DNA from: Tachypleus tridentatus
Lineage: Eukaryota; Arthropoda; Merostomata; Xiphosura; Limulidae
Direction of reading: 5' to 3'
Assembly: GCF_004210375.1 (NCBI RefSeq)
Contig: NW_027467782.1
Location: 28,189,276 to 28,253,275, forward strand
Length of the DNA: 64,000 nucleotides
Shown: positions 12,013-64,000 of the stretch, one piece after another
Layout of the letters: each line of letters starts with the position of its first letter
Position numbering within the stretch: position 1 is the first letter of the stretch
Program-made: the position numbers and the translations under genes
Notes under the pieces: generated by a model
What the model saw: the letters and a program-made list of their open reading frames with translations, nothing else
Told to the model about the DNA's origin: nothing
The model's database searches: none

Positions 12013-12239
12013 ATCCAAAGTCACATGTTGCTGCTATCAGGAACTGCTGCCAACCTGATCTATTATTCATCCTATGACTCAACTCTACAAGACCCTTTTG
12101 TATAGTTGCAAATAAGCTAACTAGGGCAATGTGAAATTTGTATACATGAAGTATAACAAGATAAATACGTATTAAAGACAAATTTAGTAAATTTGACAGT
12201 GATTCCATGCACTAGGCAACCAGCATTTTGCATAACTTA

Positions 12240-12388
12240 ATTTTTGAAGTCATCCTGGATCATTTGTTCATTGGCTAAAACCTACAAAAACCTGATTGGA
12301 CAAAAAGCAGATAATTGTCACACCCATAAATCACATATTGTACTGATCTTGTATTGATAAAACAATATTAATACAGGAAAAGAAGAAA
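12240..12388 (+). promoter_or_regulatory. Putative promoter with two inverted CCAAT boxes
   Basis: Directly upstream of the 90-aa ORF lie ATTGGC (12270-12275) and GATTGG (12294-12299), both reverse CCAAT boxes 24 bp apart, followed by an AT-rich stretch (TTGATAAAACAATATTAAT, about 12355-12373) close to the start codon. The spacing is typical of NF-Y-type promoters. This is pattern evidence only. Confidence 0.4.
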
Positions 12389-12661
12389 ATGGCTTGTAAG
12401 TGCAAAGGGCATACGTATGATACTTGTAGGAAATGTTCTCGATGTCAGTGTGGATGCAACAGTTTAGGCTTGGAGATCAAAATGGCAAAAGAAAGTGGGA
12501 AACAGCTGCAGAGAAAATTAAAGGCAGAAAGAAGAGGAAGGATTGATTATACTATTCCATTCTGGAGTGATAAAGATGAAAATTCTAACATTATTTCTAA
12601 AGATCCCTTGGATTTCATGATACCAAAAAACGAAGCAGATTATCCACGAACTCACGTGTAA
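12389..12661 (+). CDS. 90-aa Cys-rich small protein, function unknown
   Basis: Single open frame with a good start context (GAAGAAA-ATG-G). The first 23 residues hold seven cysteines (3, 5, 13, 16, 19, 21, 23) and His8, arranged as CxC, CRKC and CQCGC, which could bind metal. Residues about 28-50 are charged and helix-like (IKMAKESGKQLQRKLKAERR), and the C-terminus is acidic to polar (PFWSDKDENS, DPLDFMIPKNEADY). No signal peptide or membrane segment. I do not recognise the family. It lies among decayed CR1 pieces yet is itself intact and has CCAAT boxes upstream, so it may be a real single-exon gene or a retrocopy. The last codons (CAC-GTG-TAA) could also hide a weak donor, making this a first exon. 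The mirror copy encodes the same protein. Confidence 0.5.
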   Translation: MACKCKGHTYDTCRKCSRCQCGCNSLGLEIKMAKESGKQLQRKLKAERRGRIDYTIPFWSDKDENSNIISKDPLDFMIPKNEADYPRTHV

Positions 12662-13589
12662 ATGCAAGGTATTATTGTAGTACTTCAACAGGGCACAGGA
12701 ATGATGTCTATTCATTTTGAAAGTTTTTTTTTTTGGTATCAAATCCAGAGCAATGTCAAACTTCCAAATTAAGAAGTTTGATAGACGGAATGTTTCAGAC
12801 CTCTTGACAAGAATAATTATTTGCTTGCATTCTGTATGACTATAATAAGGATTCTATGCACCATGTTACTTCAAAGAGATGCTTAAGGTCTAATGTACAT
12901 AATAGGAAATGACATTTTTTAACATATATGATGATACAAAAGTATTCTCATCTGTCAACGATGTGCAACATTCTCTGCCAGAGAAAAGTTATACTTGCTC
13001 TGATATGTTACTCAGGGGCATTCAAAGAAGTGAAAGAGAGATTGAAGAAGAAGCTTTTTAAACAACTACATGGCACTTTCATTGACTGAAGACTGGGTTT
13101 CAGCTAGAACCTACAGAATGATTTGTCCAACTGCACTGAAAGCAATAGAGTACCATTGACCAAGGTGATGAGGATTATCCCACTAATGCCAAGATGAAGG
13201 CCTTTGTTTACTCTGAAAACAAATAGAAAAAAATAGAGAAGAATACAACAAACTATGCTTGATCTTAGAAAATAGGCTGAGAAAGTTAGTCAACAACACA
13301 ATACTATACATACATCTTCCAAGGTGGACATTCACCAAAAAGAATTAAGTTGAATACTGTGTACTATGAGAGTCAAAAACTTGCAACAGTGCTGGTAATT
13401 TGTGAATTTTTCATTAAAATTCTGTTTGGAATTTTAGTTAAACCTGAAAACACTAAAAATATGGTTTTAACTCATTGTGAAATAATGTTACATATTAATG
13501 TCTACCATACAGCCCAAATCCTAAGTGCCTGGCCCTTGAAAGCATTGTTTAAAATAAAAATAGTAAATTCAACAATTTGCTTAGCTGCT
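12662..13589. other. No gene recognised
   Basis: Contains a T-run at 12724-12733 and a plus-strand open frame at 13350-13625 without a domain, whose end overlaps the LINE endonuclease start. The rest may be decayed LINE sequence linking the pieces at 11540-12012 and 13590-15185. Confidence 0.35.
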
Positions 13590-13809
13590 ATTATTCTAGT
13601 ATCAGGAATATTAGGAACAAGATAGACAAGTTCAAAGTTGTAGTTGAAATTGGAGAGTGTGGTATAAGAGGAAACATGGGAACTTTGTTAAGCTTGGAAA
13701 ATATTGATATTAGGAATCATTTTGAAACTAGCTGATGTAATGTATCAATTCAAAGCATATGGAAGACAATAGGGATCCCTTGGGGTAGAATAGTACATCA
13801 GATCCAACT

Positions 13810-14010
13810 GCCCTAAGGGTACCTGTGAGGTTTGGTGACAAAAAGTTTAATAGTTTGCCAGCCATAAGTGAACAAATGTACAGGAAAGACATAAGGTCCC
13901 CATGCTAACTATTTGAGGTCCCTAAAGGTACAGGCCAGATTTGGTGACAATCAGTCCAGTGATTCACAAGTTACAAGTGGACACAAAATTTTTGTCAAGT
14001 AGTGCTTCAT
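13810..14010. repeat. Imperfect direct repeat inside the LINE remains
   Basis: Two similar segments of about 90 bp contain CCTAA(A)GGTAC, TTTGGTGACAA and a CA(A)GTTACAAGTG/CATAAGTGAACA block. They separate the N- and C-terminal endonuclease pieces and look like an inserted short element of unknown type. Confidence 0.5.
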
Positions 14011-14191
14011 AAATAGATAAGAGGTCAAATTATTTAACAGTGAAAGGCTTTTTAAGGAAAAGGGGGTTGAGAGACTATTTACCTAAGAAGTAAACTGTGG
14101 ATTGTTAAGTTGAAAACTTTAGAATGGAAGTTACAATTAAAGGTTGCAAGTGCAGGAAGGTTTTAATTGGATTATTGTCAAGGGAGTGAAC

Positions 14192-14247
14192 ATTATACAG
14201 TTTATTACTGACCTTATGTATGTGAGGTCGATGATAAACTGTATAAT
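14192..14247. repeat. Short hairpin, 23-bp arms
   Basis: Arms at 14192-14214 and 14225-14247 (starting ATTATACAGTTTAT) pair with three mismatches around a 10-nt loop. The mirror copy at 61878-61933 keeps it. It lies within LINE-derived sequence. Confidence 0.85.
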
Positions 14248-15189
14248 AACATCAAGGATTTTACTAATACAAATATTGATGCAATTGTAATAGGAGAATA
14301 ATTTTAGACACATTGATTGAGACCGTGTAAAGTCAAGTAATGAAGGAGAGAGACTTCTTGAAATGATTCAAGATGGTTTTCTATACCCAATAGTCAGTCA
14401 GCAAACAAGCAAGAAGGTATTCTATTTTGGATTTATTAACTGCTAATCTTTAAAGATGAAATGCTTCTATGAGTTGAAGTGGAGGAGTATTTAGAGAAAA
14501 GTGATCACTAAATAGTTAAGTGTAATGTTTTGCTATACTTTGAGAAAAACAAGAAATGAGATCTTTGTTCTTCTGAGACCTTGATGCAAGATTTATCATT
14601 CGTGAAAAAAATAGATTAAGCCAAAAAAGCAAAAGAATAACAGGAAAGATCAAATTTAACTAGTTTACTAAAGATATAAAAGAGAAAATCAGGGATAAAT
14701 ACCATGATGTTAAGTGATTTTAAGATATTTAAATTGACAGATATGTTAAAAAATTTGTAGAACTAGAGAAAAGCTACAGATTTTCTTAAAAAAAAAATAG
14801 GAAGCTCAAATGGGCTTATTTAGCTGATAAAGTTAAAACTAATTACAAAGATATATTTTCAAAGTATGTTAAAGACAACTAAATTGTTAATGGTAGGAGT
14901 GGCTTCTGGTTCCTCATACTGGTTGACTGGGTTGTAAGGAAATTTGGACTAAAGTCAGGTATACATAAATGATCCTAATTCTACATTCAGAAATAAATCT
15001 TCTCTATCAGGTTTGATACTGAAGAACCAGCATTCCTGCTGCTCAAAATATTTGAAATTAGGTATAATCTTTATGATTATACATTCTTTTAACTATATAT
15101 AAAGTTATGAAATGGACTTGAAGTTTGAAACATAGCAAATAAATGTCACATAACATCAGAATTATTGATTCTGACAACAGAAACATATT

Positions 15190-17103
15190 CAAGTACATAT
15201 TGAGTTTCTGTCTTTTCTAATATTCAGCCTGTAAAGCCGTTATCAAATATAACAAATTCAGAAAAGAAAAATAAAAGAATGTAATAAAATGTGTTACAGC
15301 AAATGACAGAGATAACATGAGAGTTGTTGCAAAGTCAAATTTATGAGTTATTTCAAAACACCATAGTATATTTATGATGTGTTATATTTACAAAGTTTAA
15401 TTTGTTAAATTATTTTACATAAATACAAAAACAAAACAGTCCAATTTATGAATCACTACTATTTATAGGAAATGATTTATGTTTCTACCACAAAACTACT
15501 ATGGGACTTGTAAACCTGATTAACTATTCTAGCACAATCCTTTTGAGAATTGGCAAATACAAATAAAAAACCAGCATATCAGTTGAAAGGAAAGATTGGA
15601 AATGGGTAAGAGGAGGTAAAGTACATATTGGAAATACATTTTCAATGTAAGAAAATGTTAGTTTCTGAATAAGTACTACTTCCACTCACCCAAAGACAGA
15701 ATTCCATACTGCAAAGGTGGAGAGGTTAGTAAAGGTGTGACAGTATGAATACTGTCATTGAGCAGATAGCAACTGCCTTAAAAGAATGTGTAACATATGA
15801 TAAAAGAAGGCACACATGTGGGGTATAGAACTGTTTCTAGAACAGGTATGCTCTTCTCCTAGTAATGAACAGAGTAATACCTGTGAGGCAATATGTAATA
15901 GGCAAGCATCATATCTGTTTGTAATTGATAATGGGCCCAAATAAATATGTGCCAAGGGTAGAGTGTTGGGGCACACTGGAGCATGTCAGTTGATGTCTAA
16001 CTGAGCAAAACATTAAGTAGAAATACTTTGTTATTGTGAGCAACAAAATCAATCTTCCTCATCAAAACAGCAAAAAACAAAAACTCCATGGGAAGCACCT
16101 TGTACAAGTACTTTGACAAAAAGTTGTTAAGTAATTCAGAATCAGCCAATTGTTAATAGATAATGCATAAGTTGTCTATATATATAACAAGTGTTAGCAG
16201 TGAACATAGTGACAGTTAGTCACAGTAAGGTGGCTGATAATGTGATATAAGTGGCTAAGGGAAAAAGCCTCAGGATACATCAGATTATGCAAAGTGCTGT
16301 CATTTTCTAAAAATTACAGGAATAAGCACCTTGGATACATTGTATTAGGCCAAATGTGGTCTGGCCATGCAGAAACATCCAGTGCAAATGCCTTGCATAA
16401 GAAATTGATTTTGAGATAAACAAGCATGGTAAAACACGTCAGAGGAAGTGTCTTGGATCCAGAACATTATGTTGCTGAATAATCAATAATTATATTGACA
16501 ATAGCCCTCTGCTTACCAAGTGAGTACATGTGAGCTGTGAAGTTTGATTTATTTCATTGAAAAATTCCCATTCAGGAGGAAACTTCCATGGTCCAGGACT
16601 CCAGCTACTGGGAACTAGAAGTGGAAAGGACTCTCAATGCTCCAGTAGAATAGGGGGTAGGGGAATGTGCACTGGGCAGTCTGGATGAATGATACACTGG
16701 AGACAGTGAAATGAGTGTGTGAGATTTCCTATATATTTTGAAAAGCAGAAAGATCCTGATTGTAAGAATCATGGATCAGTATAGAAGGACAAAAATACCA
16801 GTCTGCTTTGCTCATGGAGTCTGTTAGTGATGGTCCTTTATAGGTGAAATAGTGATTAAAACAATTATGTATATACACACACACCACTACACAAGTGCAC
16901 AGTAGTCTTACAAAAACACACCATCTAACAGTGAGCATTATAAGAGTATACAGATTTAGTGCTGATATAATTATAAGCATACTTGACCAGGCAACATCTA
17001 TCACCAGGTTGGGCCCTGAAATATAATGTATATCAACAAAATAAAGTAAAAGTTATTAATACATTGTCTTAAGAAAACGATAAATGCCCAAAAACGACAT
17101 AGC
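15190..17103. other. 1.9 kb block present only in the left arm
   Basis: Right-arm sequence jumps from the equivalent of 17104 to that of about 15189 with a few shared bases at the junction. The missing piece continues the DIRS-like fossil that both arms carry on its right side, so a deletion in the right copy explains the data better than an insertion in the left. Confidence 0.85.
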
Positions 17104-18127
17104 TAGGATGTGCAAATAATGTGTGACAAATGTATTGGGAGTTGTCTGCATACCAGCCTGAATAATCTTCTCTAAAGGACAGTAGTTTTGAGCAGCTAAA
17201 GAACCAGTTAAATGACAAATTTGGTGAGAAAAACTTTATGTCAAGAGTGATCTTCCATGAACACATCAGAATATACCAGTTGTACGAGTTAATGAAACCA
17301 ACCAGTAAGCATAATAGGTGACAGATCACAGGAAACAAAGAAATTCCATTGCAAGACTCATAAAATGAAGCAGTACAAACCACATAACACAGAAGAGAAG
17401 AAATTGGACACAGAAGTCAGTCCAGATACGAAGAGGAGAACAGATGAAAAATGAGAGGTAAGGAGATAGGAGAAAAGGTGAAAAAAACCTTCTTGGGCAT
17501 CCTATGTCTTGGGAAGGTAGGTCTAATCAGGATAGAGGATAACATACAAGGAAAAGTAAAGAAAGTGGAAAACATTAATGCCATAAATACTGGGAAAAAT
17601 GATGAATGTATGCCAGGAAAAAGAGAAAATAGCTCTTAATGAAAAGATGGTACAAGGAACATATTGCAATGACTTCAAAGGGAGAACTGGATACGGCACA
17701 AATGTGAACATTGAGATTCTAATCAAGCAGAAGAAAGGAAGGTGGCAGATGGCTACATGAGATTAAGTCCCTGAATAAAGCAAAAATATCAGATAAATGG
17801 CACACATGGAGATGGAGTTTGGTGATGTTGGTATGAAATACCTCCTAGAGCAGTTTCTGGAGGAGCACTCAGGACAGAGGGAAGGGCAGAGGCTGTTGCT
17901 CCAATAAGAGACAAAGCAGAAGGAAACATGTCCATGCTAGCTAATATGATGCAACCAGCAGAATATAACAAGGAGTGGTCAGGATAAGAGAAATAACTTT
18001 GGAGAGAATTCTGGTCATAAGGTAGGCACATAGGTGAAGACCTCTCCAATAGTGACTGAAAGCATCCTCCCCCAAAGTTATAAGGTGAGGGACTAGAAAT
18101 CAAAAAGAAAGAAGTGAGTGGTGAATG

Positions 18128-18165
<38 letters not shown>

Positions 18166-18480
18166 TATTTATAGAGCGAGACAGTACTCTCAGTTGAGAA
18201 CACAGCTACAGAAATACCTGAGGATGAAGAGACCACCACTCTGAAAGAAAAACCTGGTCAGAATGGGATAAATAGCTAGACACAGGTTTCATAATTTTGG
18301 GAATATGAAACACTAGAACTTTCATGTCATAGTAGTTGGTTTAGTACAAGATATCCCCAGCCTGAAAACACAGAGATCTGGACATGGTTCCCTCTTACTT
18401 AGCTCATGACAGTGGAATTGTCAGACTGAATCATGAAAACAAACCCACAAAAACCCAAAAAGACAACACAAAAGTAAAAA
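15600..18480 (-). mobile_element. DIRS-like retroelement fossil
   Basis: Read on the minus strand: an RNase H-like stretch with DSDNSTV near 18410-18440, then a long divergent segment, then the C-terminal part of a tyrosine recombinase near 17080-17230. Near 15610-15690 follows a terminal-type motif (CTAACATTTTCTTACA...GAAAAT) that also occurs in inverted pairs at 41122-41448. The element is broken in several places and clearly old. No intact reading frame was sought or is claimed. Confidence 0.65.
18127..18170. repeat. TA/CA microsatellite
   Basis: An AT run followed by a CA run. The right arm has a shorter, differently arranged version at about 59881-59913, so it is a length polymorphism between the two copies. 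Confidence 0.95.
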
Positions 18481-18743
18481 CCTAAACTGAATAACATGAG
18501 AATAAAAAAGTACCTGCTCAACAATGACATGTTTGAACTCACATCTACTGTACAATTAGATGTGAATAGCAGTAAAGAAAGAGGAACTTTCAAAGTAAGT
18601 AACATAAACACTGAAAATAAGTAAAAATAACAAACTGCCACACCCAAAAAATTAACCAAAGAGACATATATCCAAACAGTAATGATTATGCAAATCAGTA
18701 CAATATTTGTTTAGAACAGGTGAAACTGTTTATTTTAAAATAC

Positions 18744-18811
18744 CTGTTATAAGCTTTCAAAGATGTCATTCATATTCACAGTCCCTCTGTAGAATTGAAA
18801 GCTTCTACTTC
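18744..18811 (-). pseudogene. Fossil duplicate of the dynein 'AEGLCRW' exon
   Basis: About 95 bp downstream (in gene sense) of the dynein exon at 18906-19051 lies a stretch that aligns to its 3' half: AGCTTTCA..., AGAGGGA(C)TGTG, ...TATGAATGACATCT, AAGC(T)TATAACAG followed by GT. In translation it keeps AF, EGL and KAY-x-R but has stops. It includes the ancestral donor position (ACAG|GT). The simplest origin is a local tandem duplication of the exon followed by decay. Confidence 0.7.
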
Positions 18812-18905
18812 TGTTAATTAACTTGTTACAAGACTTTAAAATTACACCCTCACCTTAGTAGTCCTTCTGAAGTAATTAATACTGCTTTTCCTTGTATTCA
18901 CTGAC

Positions 18906-19051
18906 CTGTCATAGGCTTCCATAGCTATCACCCATCTACACAATCCCTCTGCAGCAGTGAAAGCTGTTTTTATTTTCTCTGGGTCAAAGTCAGCATTTGA
19001 AGTGTACTTATCTCTAATAGCTTTGATTGATTTAGCAGAGATGTTGTCCAA
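18906..19051 (-). pseudogene. Dynein heavy chain exon (after the stalk), probably pseudogene
   Basis: Encodes DNISAKSIKAIRDKY, then DFDPEKIKTAFTAAEGLC and RWVIAMEAYDR, the conserved segment of axonemal dynein heavy chains C-terminal to the second stalk helix region. The donor is good (GACAG|GTCAGT). At the 5' end there is no AG acceptor next to the first conserved residue (sequence TTTACTTTATTG), and the conserved 25-30 residues that should precede DNI (the WGPSKRLLGDMKFL-type segment) are not found between this exon and exon B. AEGLC-W-AM spacing fits the DNAH3/7/12 inner-arm group best. Confidence 0.75.
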
Positions 19052-21112
19052 TAAAGTAAAACATAATTTTTACTAGCAATATAGAAACTACTAATTTTTA
19101 ACAGGCAAAACAATATGGCTAATATAGCCTACCATCTCTGTTACCATTATAATACAAATGATAAACCAAAATGCTTTCTGTACACTAATAACAATATACC
19201 TACAAACATTGTTTTTAAAGTTTAAAAACACCACAGGTATAAAAATTATTACTCATACACAAGATCACACAACCAGTACAAAAACTATCTGAACTGACAA
19301 ATGAACCAAAACAGCTGCAGAAATATTTCAGTAACCAAACTCAATTTTTATATAAATCATAAGAACAAATTCTTATAATAATACATATTTTTTTTTTATT
19401 TTTCAAAATGTATTAAACCCTATATTAAATTATTTATGGAATATCCTATATGCCATAACCAGTGAACAAAATAAACGTGAGTGAAAAATAAATTAAATCT
19501 AATCAGTACTGAATCAGTTTATTTCTGAGTTTGTTTGTCTTTTCCAGCACAAACCCACATGCTGTGTCTACCATGGGATATAAAACCCTGGACTTTAACA
19601 TTGTAAGTAATATATTCAACTAAACATATATAATTATCTCATGGAAAAATACTGATAAACTGCTTTTTATCTCTTCCGTGAATCTAAGTTCAATTAAACT
19701 CAATAAATTACATGGCGTTAAATTGAATTTGGTAGTAAACATACATTTTGCAAAATTGTGGAGATTGCTGAGTTGTAATGAAGCATCAAGTGATCAGGTT
19801 ACAAATACAGAAAAACCTTTTTAAAAAATGAAATACATGTAAAAATGGCTAAAACTAATCTTTAAAAACAATGAAAACAAAATAGTAGTGATGGCATATT
19901 CCTCCATGACAGCATAGGGAAGAATTAATGTACAGCAATATCCTACAGTACTGAAACACTTGCTTATATGTGTGATTCTGGAAAAACTTTTTTATTATGT
20001 GATCTGCATTACACTACCAGTTTTTTTAGTTGGAGGGGTATTTTTAGAATGGTCATTTGGGCTTTAGGCCTGTCAGTTGCTAACATCATTAAGGCTATCA
20101 ATATGGATGTGTGGAGCTGTAATAATGAAGTTATCAGCACTTGATCGGTTGTTGTGTGGCTGTGTAGCCTAAAAAGGGCACTGCTGCACATAATTTAAAG
20201 TTCTAATGACCTGTTGAGCTAACTCTCTTCCTGACCACTATCCATTTCCCTATTATATATATCATTTAGTAAATTTTATGGATACACTTATTTGACTACT
20301 TATCCAAATTAGCACAAACAATAAATTAGTGTAAGTCATAATAAAAATATGAAGAATTAGTTTAGGTTACCCACATGGGTAGGATTATCTGGATATTAAG
20401 AAATCTGTCCTGACTGGGGCTTAAATCCATGATGCTTACTTACAATAATACTCTATAATAGTGTTCTATTATCTAAGCTATCAGGCTTCAAGTCCCAAAT
20501 AGCATACTTCTAACCTAACTATTATACCAATATACAAAGAATTTTCAAAAATCTCATATGTGCAATTTTTCACCCATTAGTTATGTTCAGTTGCAACGTG
20601 CAACAAATAACTACAACTGTTAGAAAAGTCCAGACTAATTTTTTTCGTACAAAATTACTTTAGGTACTGTTCATTTTCAAAATACTTTGAGAAGAAATAT
20701 TAAATAATACCTGTTACGAATGCAACTTCTACAAATGTTTCTACTTTCAAAATATCATTTGGTTTGATATTTTTCACACAATAAAATTTTGCCAAACCTA
20801 TAATTTTTCAAAACTTATTTTGTATACAGTCTGAATTGGTCCCTTTCAGGACAGAGTTTCAGACAATAAACTGCTATTTCTAGAAAAATTTACGAAAATG
20901 TTTCATTTAATACTATTTCTGAAGGTCTGGATTAACTTATAGGCTACAAAGATCAACAAACACATACTGCTTACAAAAGGTTCCGAGTATTGTTGCATGC
21001 GTTCATATTTGGATGTAAAATTCTACAGATATTAGAAATTTCTACAAGACTAAAAAAAAGCATTTGGATCATACATCCCTTAGAATATATATATATTGCT
21101 CTTGGCACATAC
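19052..21112. other. Region between dynein exons
   Basis: Mostly AT-rich. It should hold the WGPSKRLLGDMKFL-type exon if the gene were intact, but I see none in either arm. It does hold a tRNA-like element near 20400-20510. The right arm lacks about 18 bp here (near 20115) between short CAT repeats. Confidence 0.5.
20398..20495 (-). mobile_element. Possible tRNA-derived SINE relic
   Basis: On the minus strand a box-A-like TATAGCTTAGATAATAGA is followed about 40 nt later by a box-B-like GGATTTAAGCCCC and then AGTCAGGACAG. The spacing and box B fit a tRNA head; no tail or target-site repeat is clear. It differs from the two other SINE families. Confidence 0.4.
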
Positions 21113-21230
21113 CACTTCCAGAAGGGTCAGGAATACGATCTGGCTTGATACCTTTGAGGATACAAATTGCTTCCATGACAAGCTTAACCCCTGCAGGAGG
21201 TCTCTTCATAGTTTTCACAATAGTAATATC
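21113..21230 (-). pseudogene. Dynein heavy chain exon B (stalk base), acceptor lost
   Basis: A 118-nt exon encoding DITIVKTMKRPPAGVKLVME then ILKGIKPDRIPDPSGSG, the highly conserved segment after the ascending stalk helix. The donor AGTG|GTATGT is intact. The acceptor reads TTTTTTGG here, where the right arm has TTTTTTAG, so this copy has lost its AG at 21231-21232. It also carries MKRPP where the right arm and dyneins in general have MKSPP. The sequence type (KGIKPDRIPDPSGSG) points to the DNAH3/7/12 inner-arm clade. Confidence 0.85.
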
Positions 21231-21668
21231 CCAAAAAATAAAATAAATTTAAAAGGAATATAAAATCTAAGATAAGAGATCGTATTCAACATTACTATGA
21301 TATGATAAAAATATGTAAAAATAAAATTTACAGAAAATAAGTAGTTTTTGTAAAATAAACAAAATAATACATTAACATATATTAACTTTAATAGCATATA
21401 ATAATTTTTTAAAACAAAATGCATGATGTATGAATAATTCTCTATAATTAACAATAATTAAAAGTAAAGAGTACTTAAAATCAAGAGTTCAGATGAAATA
21501 CATGTATAAAACTGTCAAAATGCAGAATCTGTTGTGTTCATAACATAAATAGAAATACTGACAAATGGTTAGATAATATTAAATCTACATATAATAATAT
21601 ATTAGAACTTAATATGAATGTGTTATGACAAAGTAACTGAATAGGCAAAATATTCAAGAAAGACTTAC

Positions 21669-21985
21669 AGCTGGGGTTAAAGTGTTGAGTGCTGCCAAAG
21701 CAGCTTCTAATACTGGCACAGCTTCTGCTAAGTCAGTATCACATTCATTTTTAATGGCCTGAGCAGCTTCAGCCTGCTCATCAACTTTAACAATCCGCTC
21801 CACTTCAGCAATTTCTGCTGATTCTTTCGCTACCACAATCATGATCTCATCAACTTGTTGACTAGCAATTACCAGTTGTGGTTGGAGTTCAGTAAGTTCA
21901 GTCTGCATTAGAGATACCTTGGCTAGCAGCACGAGCCAGTTTCTCTAGTCCAACCTCGTAACGTTGTTTTTGTTTCATCACAATC
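21669..21985 (-). pseudogene. Dynein heavy chain exon A (microtubule-binding stalk), frameshifted
   Basis: A 317-nt exon (acceptor GCTTTAG, donor CAGCT|GTAAGT). It encodes QRYEVGLEKLARAASQ, then in a shifted frame SLMQTELTELQPQLVIA, VDEIMIVVAKESAEIAEVER, IKNECDTDLAEAVPVLEA and ALAALNTLTPA, i.e. the stalk coiled coil of an axonemal dynein heavy chain. One extra G in CAAGGTATC breaks the frame between AASQ and VSLMQ in both arms. The segment also lacks about six residues after IVKVDE relative to the family. With the missing downstream exon, this indicates a pseudogene, a shared sequence error being the main alternative. Confidence 0.85.
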
Positions 21986-22537
21986 CTAAAGCATACATTA
22001 GTGCACTAAGACTTTAAATTTATGATACATTATTTGATTTAACTAATTTTTATGTCAACATTTAAAACATCAGATCATATAAAATATTTGGTGTTGCTGA
22101 AACTTGTACAAATAAATAATCATTACTTACACTATTTCACCTGTTTTTGTCAACTTTTAAGTCGTTATAAAAACCTGTCACATACTAGGATTAATATTAA
22201 CAATATTTTAATTCCAAAACAAACACAATGAAAAGTCTATGCATTCTATGTATGTTTCTTATAATCAGACAGATGTGCAATAATAACAAGATGGCAAACA
22301 ACAATTTATAAGCATAATAAAATGATTTATTTTAGAATATACTACAAATTTTGACAGAATACTGGACTCTCCTCTTCAGGTATGATCTCTAGCTAAGCAA
22401 TATAGGGTTCGTAAATAAGCACAGAAATTAAAACCACATGGATTTAATGTAACAAAAATTATGTCACATGGTGAGAGGATTATAGACAAAGATAAATGCT
22501 GGTGAAATGTAAAAGTGGTAAATAAATTTTGCCAAAT

Positions 22538-22803
22538 TTGTTTGTTTTTGAATTTCACGCTAAGCTACACAAGGGCTATCTGTGCTAGCCATCCCTTATT
22601 TAGCAGTGTAAGACTAGAGGGAAGGCAGCTAGTCATCACCACCCACTGCCAACTCTTGGGCTACTCTTTTACCAACAAATAGTGGGATTGATTGCCACAT
22701 TATAATGCCCTCTCGACTGAAAGTGCAAGCATGTTTGATGCAATGGGATTCAAACCTCAGATTATGAGTCAAATGCCTTAACCCACCTGGCCATGCTGGG
22801 TCA
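22538..22803 (-). mobile_element. tRNA-derived SINE (family 1) with target-site repeats
   Basis: Flanked by an 11-bp direct repeat, TTTTGCCAAAT, at 22527-22537 and 22804-22814. The body runs from TGTTTGTTTTTG and AAGCTACACAAGGGCTATCTGTGCTAGCC through the TAGTGGGATTGA block to a tRNA-like head read on the minus strand (CAGCATGGCCAGGTGGGTTA as box A, AATCTGAGGTTTGAATCCC around box B). The clear target-site repeat shows normal retrotransposition. Confidence 0.9.
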
Positions 22804-27276: not shown

Positions 27277-27284
27277 GGTCATCG

Positions 27285-44760: not shown

Positions 44761-44761
44761 A

Positions 44762-50751: not shown

Positions 50752-50759
50752 CGATGACC

Positions 50760-52850: not shown

Positions 52851-53676
52851 TAAATTTACTTTAATCTTCCTATTTACTCATTCTGTATTTCTATGTTTTG
52901 CTGGAAAAATGTAACACACATTCAACAAGCTTTGTCCATCATCAATCATTATTATGTGTTTATATAAGATTCATACTCAGAGAAATTTGTTTCAGAACAC
53001 TGGTGGCATTAAATTGGACAATTAAGAAAGTCTGTCTCTTAGTGTTTTTAGTATATTGTGGCATGAGAAAGATAATTCACCTAATTTCATTAAAATGCCT
53101 TAAGATTTAATGTCTTCATTTTTACACATGAAGTAGAATCTAACAGCGGTCTTACTTTTTTATTGGATATTAACGTGAAAGGAGAAAACAATAAAGTGAC
53201 CATCTCTAGACAGGAAACCTTGTGCTACTACTTTACCATCACACATAAGATCTAATCAATATCTGTCACATAAAAAATCCTTCTACTTTGCCTATGCAAA
53301 CTATGCTCTACAACTTTGTATCCACAATGAAGACATACAAATTGACTGGAACTACTTAAGAAATCTAGCACTATCTAGAGGTTTCAATACCATTATCATA
53401 GATAGAGCTTTTATTAAACTCTAAAACCATAAGAAACGCTAACCTTTCCCCTATCAATGGTGTAAAGCATAACAAAGTTATTTCATTTTATTTTTGTGCC
53501 AAACATTGCTAATGAGATTACCAATCTATTTAATAACTTGAACATTGATATACAATGCTTTGAATACAAACTATTCAAACCTTCACTTAACATTAACTAT
53601 CTAATTTGAAATAACCGGTACTAAAGGAACAAAAGTAAAACGTATACAGTTCTTCATGCAAACATGAGAAGAAATA
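52851..53676. other. Mirror of 24356-25189, no gene recognised
   Basis: AT-rich flank of the mariner; nothing recognised. Confidence 0.4.
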
Positions 53677-55043
53677 TTAGGTTGAGGAATAATTCGTGAG
53701 CGTTTTTAAATAATTTCATTCAAGCATTACATGCAAGACTATACAATACTTCAATGCATGATCACATTACACCCAAAACATTTATTATGATACTTTATTT
53801 CATGTAATACCTTGGTATATAGCATGCATTGTTTTAAACGAAATTGCAAGAAATTAGTCAACAATAAAATCTCCATTGTTGTTGATAACTTCCTCCCATC
53901 GTTCAATAAGTTTCTCAATGCCTCGGCGATAAAAAGTCTTTCGGTCTTGACTCAAAGAATTCGTCCAACCAAGCGCTCAATTCCACGTCATTATTGAACG
54001 ATACGCCGCGCAATGCATTCGAAAGCGATCGAAAGAGATGAAAATCTGATGGCGCCAAGTCTGGCGAATATGGAGGGTGAGGCAACACTTCCCATTTAAG
54101 TTCTTGAATCGCTGCTTTGGTCATATTGGCGATGTGAGGACGAGCGTTGTCGTGCTGCAGAAGAACACTGTTTTGTCGATTTGGTCTTTTTTGCTGAATT
54201 GCTTCGTTAAGTCGGTGCAGTTGTTTAACGTAGAGATCCGCATTAACTGTTTGGTTGCGCCAAAGCAGTTCGTGATGGATTATGCCTTCCCAGTCCCACC
54301 ATACACACAACATAGTCTTTCGAGGATGGAGGTCTTGTTTTGCTCGAGGAGTCGCGTTTCTGTCGGGGCTGAGCCATTCTTCACGCCGCTTCATATTGAT
54401 GTACAGGCACCATTTTTCATCGCCAGTGACGATGCGGTAAAGAAAGCGCTCCTTGTGACCATGTGTTAAGCGATGTCGAGCAAGCAAGCAAACTGGCGGC
54501 AATTGTGATGCGCTGATTTCTATTCTTTTCGCTCAAACAGTGTGGCACCCAAGCGCCGAGTTTCTGAGCCTTGCCCATTGAATGAAGGTGGTTCACCACA
54601 GTTTTTTGATCACAATCCATCTGCTCCGCTAATTCTCTAGTCGTGTGACGTGGAGAAGCTCTTCATCAAACACAGTGTGTGACCCGTCCTTCAGATCAAA
54701 ATTACCATTTTTAAAGCGCGAAAACCAACGGCGGGCGGTACTTTCAGGCATTGCTCCTTTGCCATACACAGAACAGATCTCACGAGCAGCTTCGGCGGCG
54801 TTAACACCTCGATTAAATGCGAAAAGCAGATGGTGTCGAAAATGCTCGATTTTGTCCACTTGACATTCCATTTAATGAGCTGAAAATGAAAGCAAAAAAT
54901 TAAAGACATATGAAAATCAAACACACCATCTATCAGAGCAAAACATTATCTACTAAATGACATGAAATATTTTGCGAAAGCGTTTCATTTATGAATATAT
55001 TTTTTAACTTGAAAAAACGCTCACGAATTATTCCTCAACCCAA
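53677..55043 (-). mobile_element. Mariner (mirror copy), inactive
   Basis: Same insertion as 23023-24355, with TA flanks and the same two frame breaks. It is longer by about 30 bp because the left copy has lost a segment between two AAATAT-type repeats just inside its first terminal repeat (the extra bases lie near 54973-55002 here). It has an additional two T near 53932 that shift the end of the catalytic frame (after SRPKDF). Confidence 0.97.
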
Positions 55044-55262
55044 TATACAGTAAAAATTTTATTTGAAATAAGGACCAAAGTCACTAAGATCACATGCACA
55101 AAAGTGAGTTCCATACATGTGTTTGGATGTGTCATCAGTTTGAATCAGGTCACACAAAATGCTTTCAGACAAAATTTTTCTCCTACACCAACCCAAAAGG
55201 CAAGAGACCCTTTCATTAAACACTGATAATGGTTTGAGCAACATCAATTTTATTTGGCAAAA

Positions 55263-55530
55263 TGACCCAGCATGGCCAGGTGGGTTAAGGCATTTGACTC
55301 ATAATCTGAGGTTTGAATCCCCATTGCATCAAACATGCTTGCACTTTCAGTCGAGAGGGCATTATAATGTGGCAATCAATCCCACTATTTGTTGGTAAAA
55401 GAGTAGCCCAAGAGTTGGCAGTGGGTGGTGATGACTAGCTGCCTTCCCTCTAGTCTTACACTGCTAAATAAGGGATGGCTAGCACAGATAGCCCTTGTGT
55501 AGCTTAGCGTGAAATTCAAAAAACAAACAA
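55263..55530 (+). mobile_element. SINE family 1 with target-site repeats (mirror copy)
   Basis: Mirror of 22538-22803. The target-site repeat ATTTGGCAAAA stands at 55252-55262 and 55531-55541. Confidence 0.9.
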
Positions 55531-56079
55531 ATTTGGCAAAATTTATTTACCACTTTTACATTTCACCAGCATTTATCTTTGTCTATAATCCTCTCACCAT
55601 GTGACATAATTTTTGTTACATTAAATCCATGTGGTTTTAATTTCTGTGCTTATTTACGAACCCTATATTGCTTAGCTAGAGATCATACCTGAAGAGGAGA
55701 GTCCAGTATTGTCAAAATTTGTAGTATATTCTAAAATAAATCATTTTATTATGCTTATAAATTGTTGTTTGCCATCTTGTTATTATTGCACATCTGTCTG
55801 ATTATAAGAAACATACATAGAATGCATAGACTTTTCATTGTGTTTGTTTTGGAATTAAAATATTGTTAATATTAATCCTAATATGTGACAGGCTTTTATA
55901 ACAACTTAAAGTTGACAAAAACTGGTGAAATAGTGTAAGTAATGATTATTTATTTGTACAAGTTTCAGCAACACCAAATATTTTATATGATCTGATGTTT
56001 TAAATGTTGACATAAAAATTAGTTAAATCAAATAATGTATCATAAATTTAAAGTCTTAGTGCAGTAATGTATGCTTTAG

Positions 56080-56393
56080 GATTGTGATGAAACAAAAACA
56101 TTACGAGGTTGGACTAGAGAAACTGGCTTGTGCTGCTAGCCAAGGTATCTCTAATGCAGACTGAACTTACTGAACTCCAACCACAACTGGTAATTGCTAG
56201 TCAACAAGTTGATGAGATCATGATTGTGGTAGCGAAAGAATCAGCAGAAATTGCTGAAGTGGAGCGGATTGTTAAAGTTGATGAGCAGGCTGAAGCTGCT
56301 CAGGCCATTAAAAATGAATGTGATACTGACTTAGCAGAAGCTGTGCCAGTATTAGAAGCTGCTTTGGCAGCACTCAACACTTTAACCCCAGCT
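56080..56393 (+). pseudogene. Dynein exon A (mirror copy)
   Basis: A 314-nt exon, 3 nt shorter than the left copy (CAT-TAC in place of CAA-CGT-TAC) and with CGT changed to TGT (R to C) in the LARAASQ stretch. It shares the extra G that breaks the frame in the left copy. Confidence 0.85.
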
Positions 56394-56833
56394 GTAAGTC
56401 TTTCTTGAATATTTTGCCTATTCAGTTACTTTGTCATAACACATTCATATTAAGTTCTAATATATTATTATATGTAGATTTAATATTATCTAACCATTTG
56501 TCAGTATTTCTATTTGTGTTATGAGCACAACAGATTCTGCATTTTGACAGTTTTATACATGTATTTCATCTGAACTCTTGATTTTAAGTACTCTTTACTT
56601 TTAATTATTGTTAATTATAGAGAATTATTCATACATCATGCATTTTGTTTTTAAAAAATTATTATATGCTATTAAAGTTAATATATGTTAATGTATTATT
56701 TTGTTTATTTTACAAAAACTACTTATTTTCTGTAATTTTTATTTTTACATATTTTTTATCATATCATAGTAATGTTGAATATGATCTCTTATCTTAGATT
56801 TTATATTCCTTTTAAATTTATTTTATTTTTTAG

Positions 56834-56951
56834 GATATTACTATTGTGAAAACTATGAAGAGTCCTCCTGCAGGGGTTAAGCTTATCATGGAAGCAATTT
56901 GTATCCTCAAAGGTATCAAGCCAGATCGTATTCCTGACCCTTCTGGAAGTG
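56834..56951 (+). pseudogene. Dynein exon B (mirror copy), splice sites intact
   Basis: A 118-nt exon with acceptor TTTTTTAG and donor AGTG|GTATGT both present and the family-typical MKSPPAGVKL. This copy is better preserved than the left one, so the AG loss at 21231-21232 is private to the left copy. Confidence 0.85.
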
Positions 56952-57571
56952 GTATGTGCCAAGAGCAATATATATATTCTAAGGGATGTATAATCCAAAT
57001 GCTTTTTTTTAGTCTTGTAGAAATTTCTAATATCTGTAGAATTTTGCATCCAAATATGAACGCAAGCAACAATACTCAGAACCTTTTGTAAGCAGTATGT
57101 GTTTGTTGATCTTTGTAGCCTACAAGTTAATCCAGACCTTCAGAAATAGTATTAAATGAAACATTTTCGTAAATTTTTCTAGAAATAACAGTTTATTGAC
57201 TGAAACTCTGTCCTGAAAGGGACCAATTCAGACTGTATACAAAAAAAAAGTTTTGAAAAATTATAGGTTTGGCAAAATTTTATTGTGTGAAAAATATCAA
57301 ATCAAATGATATTTTGAAAGTAGAAACATTTGTAGAAGTTGCATTCGTAACAGGTATTATTTAATATTTCTTCTCAAAGTATTTTGAAAATGAACAGTAC
57401 CTAAAGTAATTTTGTACAAAAAAAATTAGTCTAGACCTTTCTAATAGTTGTAGTTATTTGTTGCAAGTTGCAACTGAACATAACTAATGGGTGAAAAATT
57501 GCACATATGAGATTTTTGAAAATTCTTTGTATATTGGTATAATAGTTAGGTTAGAAGTATGCTATTTGAGA

Positions 57572-57662
57572 CTTGAAGCCTTATAGCTTAGATAATAGAA
57601 CACTGTTATAGAGTATTATTGTAAGTAAGCATCATGGATTTAAGCCCCAGTCAGGACAGATT
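57572..57662 (+). mobile_element. Possible tRNA-derived SINE relic (mirror copy)
   Basis: Mirror of 20398-20495: TATAGCTTAGATAATAGA then GGATTTAAGCCCC. Confidence 0.4.
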
Positions 57663-58990
57663 TCTTAATTTCCAGATAATCCTACCCATGTGGGTAATCT
57701 AAACTAATTTATATTTTTATTATGACTTACAATAATTTGTTGTTTGTGCTAATTTGGATAAGTAGTCAAATAAGTGTATCCATAAAATTTACTAAATGAT
57801 ATATATAACAGGGAAATGGATAGTGGCCAGGAAGAGTTAGCTCAACAGGTCATTAGAACTTTAAATTATGTACAGCAGTGCCCTTTCTAGGCTACACAGC
57901 CACACAACAACTGATCAAGTGCTGATAACTTCATCCATATTGATAGCCTTAATGATGTTAGCAACTGACAGGCCTAAAGCCCAAATGACCATTCTAAAAA
58001 ATACCCCTCCAAATAAAAAAACTGGTAGTGTAATGCAGATCACATAATAAAAAGGTTTTTCCAGAATCACACATATAAGCAAGAGTTTCAGTACTGTAGG
58101 ATATTGCTGTACATTAATTCTTCCCTATGCTGTCATGGAGGAATATGCCATCACTACTATTTTGTTTTCATTGTTTTTAAAGATTAGTTTTAGCCATTTT
58201 TACATGTACTTCATTTTTTAAAAGTTTTTTCTATATTTGTAACCTGATCACTTGATGCTTTATTACAACTCAGCAATCTCCACAATTTTGCAAAATGTAT
58301 GTTTACTACCAAATTCAATTTAATGCCATGTAATTTATTGACTTTAATTGAACTTAGATTCACAGAAGAGGTTAAAAGCAGTTTATCAGTATTTTTCCAT
58401 GAGATAATTATATATGTTTAGTTGAATTTATTACTTACAATGTTAAAGTCCAGGGTTTTATTTCCATAGACACAGCATGTGGGTTTGTGCTTGGAAAAAC
58501 AAACTCAGAAATAATCTGATTCAGTACTGATGCAACACTGATTAGATTTAATTTATTTTTCACTTATGTTTATTTTGTTCACTGGTTATGGCATATAGGA
58601 TATTCCATAAATAATTTAATATAGGGTTTAATACATTTTGAAAAATAAAAAAAATATGTATTATTATAAGAATTTGTTCTTATGATTTATATAAAAATTG
58701 AGTTTGGTTACTGAAATATTTCAGCAGCTGTTTTGGTTCATTTGTCAGTTCAGATAGTTTTTGTACTGGTTGTGTGATCTTGTGGATGAGTAATAATTTT
58801 TATACCTGAGGTGTTTTTAAACTTTAAAAACAATGTTTGTAGGTATATTGTTATTAGTGTACAGAAAGCATTTTGGTTTATCATTTGTATTATAATGGTA
58901 ACAGAGATGGTAGGCTATATTAGCCATATTGTTTTGCCTGTTAAAAATTAGTAGTTTCTATATTGCTAGTAAAAATTATGTTTTACTTTA

Positions 58991-59136
58991 TTGGACAACA
59001 TCTCTGCTAAATCAATCAAAGCTATTAGAGATAAGTACACTTCAAATGCTGACTTTGACCCAGAGAAAATAAAAACAGCTTTCACTGCTGCAGAGGGATT
59101 GTGTAGATGGGTGATAGCTATGGAAGCCTATGACAG
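58991..59136 (+). pseudogene. Dynein exon C (mirror copy)
   Basis: Same as 18906-19051, donor GACAG|GTTAGT. Again no AG acceptor directly before the DNISAK stretch and no WGPSKRLLGDMKFL-type exon between this and exon B. Confidence 0.75.
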
Positions 59137-59229
59137 GTTAGTGAATACAAGGAAAAGCAGTATTAATTACTTCAGAAGGACTACTAAGGTGAGGGTGTAA
59201 TTTTAAAGTCTTGTAACAAGTTAATTAAC

Positions 59230-59298
59230 AGAAGTAGAAGCTTTCAATTCTATAGAGGGACTGTGAATATGAATGACATCTTTGAAAGCTTATAACAG
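59230..59298 (+). pseudogene. Fossil duplicate of dynein exon C (mirror copy)
   Basis: Mirror of 18744-18811. GAAGCTTTCAATTCTATAGAG, GGACTGTG and AAGCTTATAACAG|GT align to the end of exon C about 95 bp upstream. Confidence 0.7.
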
Positions 59299-59609
59299 GT
59301 ATTTTAAAATAAACAGTTTCACCTGTTCTAAACAAATATTGTACTGATTTGCATAATCATTACTGTTTGGATATATGTCTCTTTGGCTAATTTTTTGGGT
59401 GTGGCAGTTTGTTATTTTTACTTATTTTCAGTGTTTATGTTACTTAGTTTGGAAGTTCCTCTTTCTTTACTACTATTCACATCTAATTGTACAGTAGATG
59501 TGAGTTAAAACATGTTATTGTTGAGCAGGTACTTTTTTATTCTCATGTTATTCAGTTTAGGTTTTTACTTTTGTGTTGTTTGTCTTTTTGGGTTTTTGGG
59601 GGGTTTGTT

Positions 59610-60950
59610 TTTATGATTCAGTCTGACAATTCCACTGTCATGAGCTAAGTAAGAGGGAACCATGTCCAGATCTCTGTGTTTTCAGACTGGGGATATCTTG
59701 TACTAAACCAACTACTATGACATGAAAGTTCTAGTGTTTCATATTCCCAAAATTATGAAACTTGTGTCTAGCTATTTATCCCATTCTGACCAGGTTTTTC
59801 TCTCAGAGTGGTGATCTCTTCATCCTCAGGTATTTCTGTAGCTGTGTTCTTAACTGAGAGTACTGTCTCGCTCTATAAATATGTGTGTGTGTGTGTATAT
59901 ATATATACACACATTCACCACTCACTTCTTTCTTTTTGATTTCTAGTCCCTCACCTTATAACTCTGGGGAGGATGCTTTCAGTCACTATTGGAGAGGTCT
60001 TCACCTATGTGCCTACCTTCTGACCAGAATTCTCTCCAAAGTTATTTCTCTTATCCTGACCACTCCTTGTTATATTCTGCTGGTTGCATCATATTGGCTA
60101 GCATAGACATGTTTCCTTCTGCTTTGTCTCTTATTGGAGCAACAGCCTCTGCCCTTCCATCTGTCCTGAGTGCTCCTCCAGAAACTGCTCTAGGAGGTAT
60201 TTCATACCAACATCACCAAACTCAATCTCCATGTGTGCCATTTATCTGATTTTTTTGCCTTATTTAGGGACTTAATCTCATGTAGCCATCTGCCACCTTC
60301 CTTTCTTCTGCTTGATTAGAATCTCAATGTTCACATTTGTGCCATATCCAGTTCTCCCTTTGAAGTCATTGCAATATGTTCCTTGTACCATCTTTTCATT
60401 AAGAGCTATTTTCTCTTTTTCCTGGCATACATTCATCATTTTTCCCAGTATTTATGGCATTAATGTTTTCCACTTTCTTTACTTTTCCTTGTATGTTATC
60501 CTCTGTCCTGATTAGACCTACCTTCCCAAGACATAGGATGCCCAAGAAGGTTTTTTTCACCTTTTCTCCTATCTCCTTACCTCTCATTTTCCACCTGTTC
60601 TCCTCTTCGTATCTGGACTGACTTCTGTGTTCAATTTCTTCTCTTCTATGTTATGTGGTTTGTACTGCTTCATTTTATGAGTCTTGCAATGGAATTTCTT
60701 TGTTTCCTGTGATCTGTCACCTATTATGCTTACTGGTTGGTTTCATTAACTCATACAACTGGTATATTCTGATGTGTTCATGGAAGATCACTCTTGACAT
60801 AAAGTTTTTCTCACCAAATTTGTCATTTAACTGGTTCTTTAGCTGCTCGAAACTACTGTCCTTTAGAGAAGATTATTCAGGCTGGTATGCAGACAACTCC
60901 CAATACATTTGTCACAGATTATTTGCACATCCTACAATACGTTTCTGTTG
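59610..60950 (+). mobile_element. DIRS-like retroelement fossil (mirror copy, 3' part missing)
   Basis: Mirror of 17104-18480. It begins with the RNase H-like stretch and ends in the tyrosine recombinase remnant near 60945, where the 1.9 kb present in the left arm is absent. Broken and old. Confidence 0.65.
59881..59913. repeat. GT/TA microsatellite (mirror copy)
   Basis: GT run, TA run, then CACACA; shorter than the left version at 18127-18170. Confidence 0.95.
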
Positions 60951-62535
60951 TCAGAATCAATAATTCTGATGTTATGTGACATTTATTTGCTATGTTTCAA
61001 ACTTCAAGTCCATTTCATAACTTTATATATAGTTAAAAGAATGTATAATCATAAAGATTATACCTAATTTCAAATATTTTGAGCAGCAGGAATGCTGGTT
61101 CTTCAGTTTCAAACCTGATAGAGAAGATTTATTTCTGAATGTAGAATTAGGATCATTTATGTATACCTGACTTTAGTCCAAATTTCCTTACAACCCAGTC
61201 AACCAGTATGAGGAACCAGAAGCCACTCCTACCATTAACAATTTAGTTGTCTTTAACATACTTTGAAAATATATCTTTGTAATTAGTTTTAACTTTGTCA
61301 GCTAAATAAGCCCATTTGAGCTTCCTAATTTTTTTTGAAGAAAATCTGTAGCTTTTCTCTAGTTCTACAAATTTTTTAACATATCTGTCAATTTAAATAT
61401 CTTAAAATCACTTAACATCATGGAATTTATCCCTGATTTTCTCTTTTATATCTTTAGTAAACTAGTTAAATTTGATCTTTCCTGTTATTCTTTTGCTTTT
61501 TTGGCTTAATATATTTTTTTCACGAATGATAAATCTTGCATCAAGGTCTCAGAAGAATAAAGATCTCATTTCTTGTTTTTCTCAAAGTATAGCAAAACAT
61601 TACACTTAACTATTTAGTGATCACTTTTCTCTAAATACTCCTCCACTTCAACTCATAGAAGCATTTCATCTTTAAAGATTAGCAGTTAATAAATCCAAAA
61701 TAGAATACCTTCTTGCTTGTTTGCTGACTGACTATTGGGTATAGAAAACCATCTTGAATCATTTCAAGAAGTCTCTCTCCTTCATTACTTGACTTTACAC
61801 GGTCTCAATCAATGTGTCTAAAATTATTCTCCTATTACAATTGCATCAATATTTGTATTAGTAAAATCCTTGATGTTATTATACAGTTTATCATCGACCT
61901 CACATACATGAGGTCAGTAATAAACTGTATAATGTTCACTCCCTTGACAATAATCCAATTAAAACCTTCCTGCACTTGCAACCTTTAATTGTAACTTCCA
62001 TTCTAAAGTTTTCAACTTAACAATCCACAGTTTACTTCTTAGGTAAATAGTCTCTCAACCCCCCTTTTCTTTAAAAGCCTTTCACTGTTAAATAATTTGA
62101 CCTCTTATCTATTTATGAAGCACTACTTGACAAAAATTTTGTGTCCACTTGTAACTTGTGAATCACTGGACTGATTGTCACCAAATCTGGCCTGTACCTT
62201 TAGGGACCTCAAATAGTTAGCATGGGGACCTTATGTCTTTCCTGTACATTTGTTCACTTATGGCTGGCAAACTATTAAACTTTTTGTCACCAAACCTCAC
62301 AGGTACCCTTAGGGCAGTTGGATCTGATGTACTATTCTACCCCAAGGGATCCCTATTGTCTTCCATATGCTTTGAATTGATACATTACATCAGCTAGTTT
62401 CAAAATGATTCCTAATATCAATATTTTCCAAGCTTAACAAAGTTCCCATGTTTCCTCTTATACCACACTCTCCAATTTCAACTACAACTTTGAACTTATC
62501 TATCTTGTTCCTAATATTCCTGATACTAGAATAAT
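60951..62535 (-). mobile_element. CR1-like LINE endonuclease remains (mirror copy)
   Basis: Mirror of 13590-15185, read on the minus strand; includes the hairpin at 61878-61933. Confidence 0.7.
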
Positions 62536-63465
62536 AGCAGCTAAGCAAATTGTTGAATTTACTATTTTTATTTTAAACAATGCTTTCAAGGGCCAGGCAC
62601 TTAGGATTTGGGCTGTATGGTAGACATTAATATGTAACATTATTCCACAATGAGTTAAAACCATATTTTTAGTGTTTTCAGGTTTAACTAAAATTCCAAA
62701 CAGAATTTTAATGAAAAATTCACAAATTACCAGCACTGTTGCAAGTTTTTGACTCTCATAGTACACAGTATTCAACTTAATTCTTTTTGGTGAATGTCCA
62801 CCTTGGAAGATGTATGTATAGTATTGTGTTGTTGACTAACTTTCTCAGCCTATTTTCTAAGATCAAGCATAGTTTGTTGTATTCTTCTCTATTTTTTTCT
62901 ATTATTTGTTTTCAGAGTAAACAAAGGCCTTCATCTTGGCATTAGTGGGATAATCCTCATCACCTTGGTCAATGGTACTCTATTGCTTTCAGTGCAGTTG
63001 GACAAATCATTCTGTAGGTTCTAGCTGAAACCCAGTCTTCAGTCAATGAAAGTGCCATGTAGTTGTTTAAAAAGCTTCTTCTTCAATCTCTCTTTCACTT
63101 CTTTGAATGCCCCTGAGTAACATATCAGAGCAAGTATAACTTTTCTCTGGCAGAGAATGTTGCACATCGTTGACAGATGAGAATACTTTTGTATCATCAT
63201 ATATGTTAAAAATGTCATTTCCTATTATGTACATTAGACCTTAAGCATCTCTTTGAAGTAACATGGTGCATAGAATCCTTATTATAGTCATACAGAATGC
63301 AAGCAAATAATTATTCTTGTCAAGAGGTCTGAAACATTCCGTCTATCAAACTTCTTAATTTGGAAGTTTGACATTGCTCTGGATTTGATACCAAAAAAAA
63401 AAACTTTCAAAATGAATAGACATCATTCCTGTGCCCTGTTGAAGTACTACAATAATACCTTGCAT
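62536..63465. other. Mirror of 12662-13589, no gene recognised
   Basis: Nothing supported apart from short unsupported open frames. Confidence 0.35.
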
Positions 63466-63738
63466 TTACACGTGAGTTCGTGGATAATCTGCTTCGTTTT
63501 TTGGTATCATGAAATCCAAGGGATCTTTAGAAATAATGTTAGAATTTTCATCTTTATCACTCCAGAATGGAATAGTATAATCAATCCTTCCTCTTCTTTC
63601 TGCCTTTAATTTTCTCTGCAGCTGTTTCCCACTTTCTTTTGCCATTTTGATCTCCAAGCCTAAACTGTTGCATCCACACTGACATCGAGAACATTTCCTA
63701 CAAGTATCATACGTATGCCCTTTGCACTTACAAGCCAT
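63466..63738 (-). CDS. 90-aa Cys-rich small protein (mirror copy)
   Basis: Encodes the same 90 residues as 12389-12661, with the same seven N-terminal cysteines. The CCAAT boxes upstream (about 63828-63857) are kept. Confidence 0.5.
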   Translation of the reverse strand: MACKCKGHTYDTCRKCSRCQCGCNSLGLEIKMAKESGKQLQRKLKAERRGRIDYTIPFWSDKDENSNIISKDPLDFMIPKNEADYPRTHV

Positions 63739-63890
63739 TTTCTTCTTTTCCTGTATTAATATTGTTTTATCAATACAAGATCAGTACAATATGTGATTTA
63801 TGGGTGTGACAATTATCTGCTTTTTTGTCCAATCAGGTTTTGTAGGTTTTAGCCAATGAACAAATGATCCAGGATGACTTCAAAAATTAA
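63739..63890 (-). promoter_or_regulatory. Putative promoter (mirror copy)
   Basis: CCAATC (near 63828-63833) and GCCAAT (near 63852-63857) mirror the two boxes at 12270-12299. Confidence 0.4.
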
Positions 63891-64000
63891 GTTATGCAAA
63901 ATGCTGGTTGCCTAGTGCATGGAATCACTGTCAAATTTACTAAATTTGTCTTTAATACGTATTTATCTTGTTATACTTCATGTATACAAATTTCACATTG

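Follow-up and report, generated by a model that had tools for sequence, protein, structure and literature searches.

Does an inverted duplication that meets an assembly gap represent two genuine copies of a segment, or two alleles of one locus scaffolded side by side? The question is raised by a 64,000-nucleotide stretch of the Tachypleus tridentatus genome. This stretch, hereafter the window, is C19:28189276-28253275. C19 is NW_027467782.1, a chromosome-scale sequence of 69.8 Mb in an assembly of 2.17 Gb and 205 contigs. The original prediction, made from the letters alone, described an inverted duplication of more than 19 kb beginning exactly at the gap and proposed a probable haplotig. We conclude that the left copy (AL) and the right copy (AR) are probably non-allelic. 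Each would be one member of a family built from a segment of about 60 kb; portions of this segment have undergone repeated amplification on C19, in both orientations. Copy numbers and positions are observations; from the relationships between copies we infer non-allelism.

The inverted copies extend beyond the window

The window was compared with itself using BLASTN. The features that define the duplication are as follows.

1-33266, plus strand: window part of AL. Its contig runs from C19:28160425, outside the window, to window position 44260.
15190-17103, plus strand: 1.9 kb found in AL and at three other loci, missing from AR (junction 60934-60936).
33267-44260, plus strand: spacer attached to AL, also at C19:26.40 and 27.09 Mb and without an inverted mate at the locus.
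44261-44760, no strand: scaffold gap of 500 N, the only N run in the window, separating the two contigs.
44761-64000, minus strand: window part of AR, beginning at the contig's first base and running to about C19:28305040.

Positions 12127-15189 pair in inverted orientation with 64000-60936 (99.35% identity), and 17104-33266 pair with 60934-44761 (98.43%, gaps counted). Matches of 16 kb at 98% are not chance. The predicted inverted duplication meeting the gap was borne out: window positions 12127-33266 recur inverted at 44761-64000. Two predicted details also held. Left base 33266 pairs with 44761, the first base past the N run, and a 1.9-kb presence/absence difference exists, 15190-17103 being missing from the right arm.

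The predicted extent was right in part. An inverted copy of more than 19 kb is present, but the window edge is no arm end and pairing runs on outside. With flanks included, pairing spans C19:28173845-28222541 against 28234036-28280729. It is then interrupted by 12,295 bp found only in AR (C19:28280730-28293024) and restarts at 28173846/28293025, where 251 bp are visible before the edge of the fetched sequence. We rejected C19:28173845/28280729 as the outer arm end because pairing restarts past AR's extra 12.3 kb. Further pairing runs from 28169275/28297594 to 28160475/28305040. The 4.3 kb between those two outer matches lay outside the comparison and is of equal length on both sides.

The left contig (C19:28160425-28233535, 73,111 bp) has a gap at each end, the outer one being 500 N at C19:28159925-28160424. 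Over about 62 kb the contig runs collinear with its right-hand counterpart; apart from the contig's first 50 bp, this takes in the whole arm. Its last 11 kb is the spacer. A separate 2.5-kb inverted repeat (90%) lies just left of the outer gap, at C19:28149276-28158967.

Identity between the arms is 98.4-98.8% with gaps counted and 99.2-99.5% by single nucleotide polymorphisms (SNPs). Where aligned, SNP divergence is 0.45-0.77%: there are 138 SNPs in the outer 30.4 kb (0.45%), while 17104-33266 differs by 0.77%. The outer comparison is of AL with AR, as most other copies were not fetched there. Because 65 of 83 indels in the outer arm are of a single base, these could be consensus errors as readily as true variants.

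Such a layout is what an allelic explanation would draw on. The 73-kb left contig would be the other allele of AR, retained and scaffolded beside AR in reverse. A short contig with gaps at both ends and about 62 kb collinear with AR fits this account, and SNP distances of 0.45% (outer) and 0.77% (inner) are plausible as heterozygosity, with insects as the yardstick. False (haplotype) duplications, as described in excerpts of PMC9516828, likewise place near-identical copies on one scaffold with, usually, a gap between them. Here the gap is 44261-44760, plus the one at C19:28159925-28160424. In contrast to those cases, the present copies belong to a many-copy family, and AL and AR are not clearly each other's closest relatives. 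We consider the allelic explanation unlikely, on the evidence given below.

The inner edge is a contig end

A second facing pair lies at C19:26.38-26.43 Mb (C19:26376000-26425999). It comprises BL (26.376-26.388 Mb) and BR (26.404-26.426 Mb), joined at a 500-N gap (26388345-26388844). A further copy, C, lies at C19:27.085-27.115 Mb; D4, E13 and F11 are copies on C4, C13 and C11. One stretch of the window is shared with these chromosomes.

27376-41805, plus strand: collinear on C4 as one alignment and partly on C13 and C11; 41805 is the edge of the fetched sequence.

BR, C, D4, E13 and F11 all continue through the equivalent of 33266 without a break. BL reaches 1,458 bp deeper than AR, to the equivalent of 34723, where it ends at its own gap. 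Hence, position 33266 is no natural repeat boundary, and the true inner end is missing from the assembly. The arm's apparent start at 44761 reflects the end of the right contig. The assembly gap does set the inner edge, as originally claimed. The accompanying argument, that nothing would make a natural palindrome begin at a gap, is doubtful since assemblies often break off where near-identical repeats begin or end. One widely used Hi-C scaffolder inserts 500 N by default. Whether the copies are allelic or not, the inner edge should not be taken as a natural breakpoint. About 6.1 kb, corresponding to window 22766-28862, is present in AL, AR, BR and C and missing from BL.

The middle of the window (33.3-44.3 kb) had been described as single-copy, which our searches contradict. 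A tested 2-kb piece of the spacer (36500-38500) has at least three copies on C19 at 99-100% and one on C4 at 99%. It also occurs at 92-97% on C13, C11, C1, C9 and C6. Since this piece is multi-copy, the middle is unsuitable as a single-copy baseline, and read depth calibrated on it would mislead.

BR and C share at least 6.3 kb past the equivalent of window 44260 (C19:26.39 and 27.08 Mb). The following 3 kb at the B locus recurs, among the matches listed, next to C, at 26.93 Mb, in part at 25.02 Mb, and on C11 at 0.98 Mb (98%). These 3 kb had no match at 28.23 Mb among the 108 listed (best 40 of 3248 candidates). If the locus continues like B and C, the gap would hide at least 6.3 kb.

The segment belongs to a many-copy family

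Sequence present as a haplotig is usually, if not strictly, single-copy otherwise. Here, window 2500-8500 has at least 19 full-length copies on C19 and at least four on C4, at 98-100%. The inner arm (44761-45761) has at least five copies on C19 and at least one on C4, at 99% or more. Further out, C19:28174275-28179275 has at least 12 full-length copies on C19 and at least one on C4, and window 19000-21000 occurs at no fewer than five loci on C19, one of them partial. These counts are lower bounds, the best 26-40 candidates having been scored per search, and AL and AR are counted as members throughout. There are thus several kilobase-scale copies of more than 90% identity at separate loci, as in segmental duplication. 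The C4 copies of window 2500-8500 (four full-length at 98% and one partial) lie at 20.24-20.52 Mb and 45.37 Mb; four of the five form one small cluster.

AL and AR are not consistently closest relatives

We ranked the full-length matches of six non-overlapping AL segments by bit score. AR came first in two. For 28174275-28179275 it scored 8732, against 8682 for the 28.08-Mb copy; for 28191775-28197775 it scored 10497, the next match 10459 and the 28.06-Mb copy 10421. The inverted copy at 28.09-28.10 Mb came first in another two. Its scores were 7738 against 7643 for AR (28160475-28164827) and 5557 against 5461 (28166141-28169275). BR led the remaining two, in which only fetched loci were ranked: window 17104-22536 (9312, AR 9045) and window 28863-33266 (7854, C 7843, AR 7828). 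Hence, where both were scored, the inverted copy at 28.06-28.10 Mb beats AR in two of four segments, which argues against allelism.

SNP distances over 17104-33266 point the same way. AL-AR (0.77%) is the most divergent of the six pairs among AL, AR, BR and C. The others are AL-BR (0.54%), AL-C (0.51%), AR-BR (0.55%), AR-C (0.53%) and BR-C (0.24%). When BL was included, AL-AR was still the largest distance in 17104-22536, at 1.86%. Among SNPs of the five copies in that interval, ten sites join AR with BL against AL, BR and C, three join AL with AR against the rest, and three other splits have one site each. Polarised with a C8 outgroup, seven of the ten AR+BL sites are derived in AL and BR (and C) and two in AR and BL; one falls outside the outgroup.

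Tree comparisons used the approximately unbiased (AU) and Shimodaira-Hasegawa (SH) tests. For 22801-33266, with a C4 outgroup covering 27376-33266, nine trees were tried, and the three that join AL with AR gave AU p values of 0.003, 0.001 and 0.040. For 20010-22482, with a C8 outgroup, the corresponding three of nine gave AU p values of 0.005-0.006 and SH p values of 0.03-0.04. All six rooted trees joining AL and AR that were tested had AU p values below 0.05. In the unrooted five-copy set, for which 11 of the 15 possible trees were tried, the best tree joins AR with BL.

Several results weigh against non-allelic copies. Nearly all of the arm part of the left contig is collinear with AR, which is how a haplotig would look. 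When 1 kb of AR served as query, AL ranked first, by a margin of 2 bits. In 28863-33266, AL-BL distance (0.30%) exceeds AL-AR (0.14%), and two shared SNPs support AL+BR/AR+BL+C and AL+AR+BR/BL+C. Four-copy SNP patterns favour AL+AR/BR+C by 9 to 3 and 1, with three of the nine sites within 5 bases of a TA repeat; this points to a haplotig, or else to relatedness of BR and C. Nine of the ten AR+BL sites fall within 684 bp (20863-21546) and could stem from one conversion event. In the set rooted with C4, AL+AR survives the SH test (p 0.06-0.09), and none of three AL+AR trees was rejected in the unrooted five-copy set (AU p 0.12, 0.24 and 0.12). Of the possible rooted five-copy trees with AL and AR together, three were tried. 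All of the tree and SNP-pattern tests lose force through linkage among sites and through exchange between copies.

The allelic reading is disfavoured. It must also accommodate a similar gap-joined pair at 26.38-26.43 Mb and variants common to mate arms. Of the originally proposed haplotig, the layout stands: a contig of 73 kb, bounded by a gap on each side, that is collinear with the adjoining one. The allelic step is not supported, given the many-copy family and the rooted AU results. If AL and AR are non-allelic, recent duplication would keep the copies 98-99% alike. Exchange between copies probably contributes too, because the closest relative changes along the arm. Purging one copy as a haplotig would then remove a real member of the amplicon family, and C19 would offer an example in which to study the growth of repeat-rich chromosomes. 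If they are alleles, gene and repeat counts at the locus are inflated.

Facing pair or reversed contig

Both facing pairs, at 28.2 Mb and at 26.38-26.43 Mb, are joined at a gap and not by contiguous sequence. The 73-kb contig could therefore hold a non-allelic copy, as we propose, and yet have been set in backwards. If it were flipped, 28.06-28.10, 28.16-28.23 and 28.23-28.31 Mb would form a direct series with no palindrome. Of the copies that neighbour one another at 28.05-28.31 Mb, AL alone runs the other way; those on either flank of its short contig agree with each other. In Hi-C scaffolding, orientation is least reliable for short contigs. Conversely, the same facing layout recurs at 26.38-26.43 Mb, and AR and BL share variants as mate arms would. 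The ratio of inner arms to spacers on C19 (at least five to at least three) fits pairs, but collapsed copies could have made the count of three spacers too low. Opposed neighbours also occur elsewhere, in the order - + - + at C19:38.59-38.91 Mb, with or without intervening gaps. No mate arm for C was found among the matches listed for the inner-arm and window 19000-21000 queries. We regard a reversed contig as a substantial possibility that falls short of even. The five inner arms to three spacers, the variants shared by AR and BL and the repeated layout weakly favour real facing pairs. We put the chance that AL and AR truly face each other, in a palindrome whose spacer would measure some 16 kb or more, slightly above even.

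A true palindrome might instead owe its likeness to arm-to-arm gene conversion, as on the mammalian Y. This would be a special case of non-allelic copies. A facing pair at two loci is consistent with it, as is the lack of any AL-AR SNP in 23104-24103 and 30104-31103. However, copies outside the pair are equally close in both intervals, so these SNP-free stretches are no sign of conversion within the pair. Human Y palindrome arms are more than 99.9% alike, according to PMC3723533, and the present arms are less so. We consider conversion of this kind unlikely. Non-allelic copies of an amplified segment remain our preferred reading.

Relation to known systems

The locus most likely reflects amplicon biology of a known kind, viewed through an assembly break. 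It resembles mammalian Y palindromes (excerpts of PMC3723533 and PMC3403216) in its large facing inverted repeats. It differs in that identity is 98.4-98.8% (99.2-99.5% by SNPs) and not above 99.9%, the centre is unassembled and no pair-specific conversion was demonstrated. Many near-identical duplicated segments on one chromosome are also described for the Y of the Drosophila simulans clade (excerpts of PMC8794474). Unlike there, no gene family was identified here, the arm frames that were scanned against Pfam matching transposon types only, and sex-limitation of C19 is a guess. A single literature search for inverted ampliconic repeats in insect or B-chromosome genomes returned no match; another, on palindromes, the Y chromosome and insects, led to PMC8794474 among others.

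Near-identical copies abound on C19 and have relatives on other chromosomes. Such content would suit a Y-, W- or B-like chromosome, as a guess, and proves nothing; passages on Fulgoridae in PMC4722918 give no more than context. The genome looks insect-like: on the mitochondrial contig C205, COX1 has 12 internal TGA codons, and ND2, COX1, COX2 and ATP6 follow an order like that of insects, for which reason a vertebrate origin was rejected. A more specific scheme, which we think doubtful, has C19 sex-limited or B-derived and grown by autosomal pieces arranged as opposed pairs. Whole palindromes would then have been copied as units, with the spacer-attached arms at 26.4 and 28.2 Mb orthologous to one another, and the mate arms likewise.

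Large indels and transposon content

The 1.9-kb sequence at 15190-17103 is also found at C19:26.42 Mb (BR), C19:26.37 Mb (BL) and C11:0.95 Mb. As three other loci carry it, the difference looks like a deletion in AR, and we rejected an insertion in AL. A 1.3-kb repeat in AL (28164828-28166140) is missing from AR and from the copies at 28.10 and 30.03 Mb; it has many copies elsewhere at 98-99%. From AR's extra 12.3 kb, a tested 6-kb piece has at least three more full-length copies on C19 at 99%, and the insert contains a CENP-B_N/Tc5-like DNA-binding frame. Those frames in the arms that were scanned against Pfam matched transposon types only, and no gene family was identified. One such match has a counterpart in each arm.

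23503-24282, plus strand: mariner-type transposase remnant (Pfam Transposase_1), with a mate at 53915-54532 on the minus strand.

Window 9208-10122 matches 39088-40038 in inverted orientation (74%), and both remnants look like long interspersed nuclear element (LINE) sequence. RVT_1 at 38341-38790 (E 1e-6) is just under the Pfam cut-off, and an RNase_H match within 9203-9940 is weak (E 0.07).

On C11, the interval 949099-982340 has matches to window 14500-17800 (99%) and to the sequence that follows the spacer (98%). It was not among the matches listed for the inner-arm and spacer queries. This locus is a possible source of part of the amplicon.

RRM matches on C19 number three among the best 150 of 488 candidates, all at 52.0-52.2 Mb; about five are expected by length, so the count is not decisive. 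The three (C19:52008315-52208316) lie close together and are similar in extent to C11:82234255. Possibly, an RRM gene was copied from C11 and then multiplied on C19.

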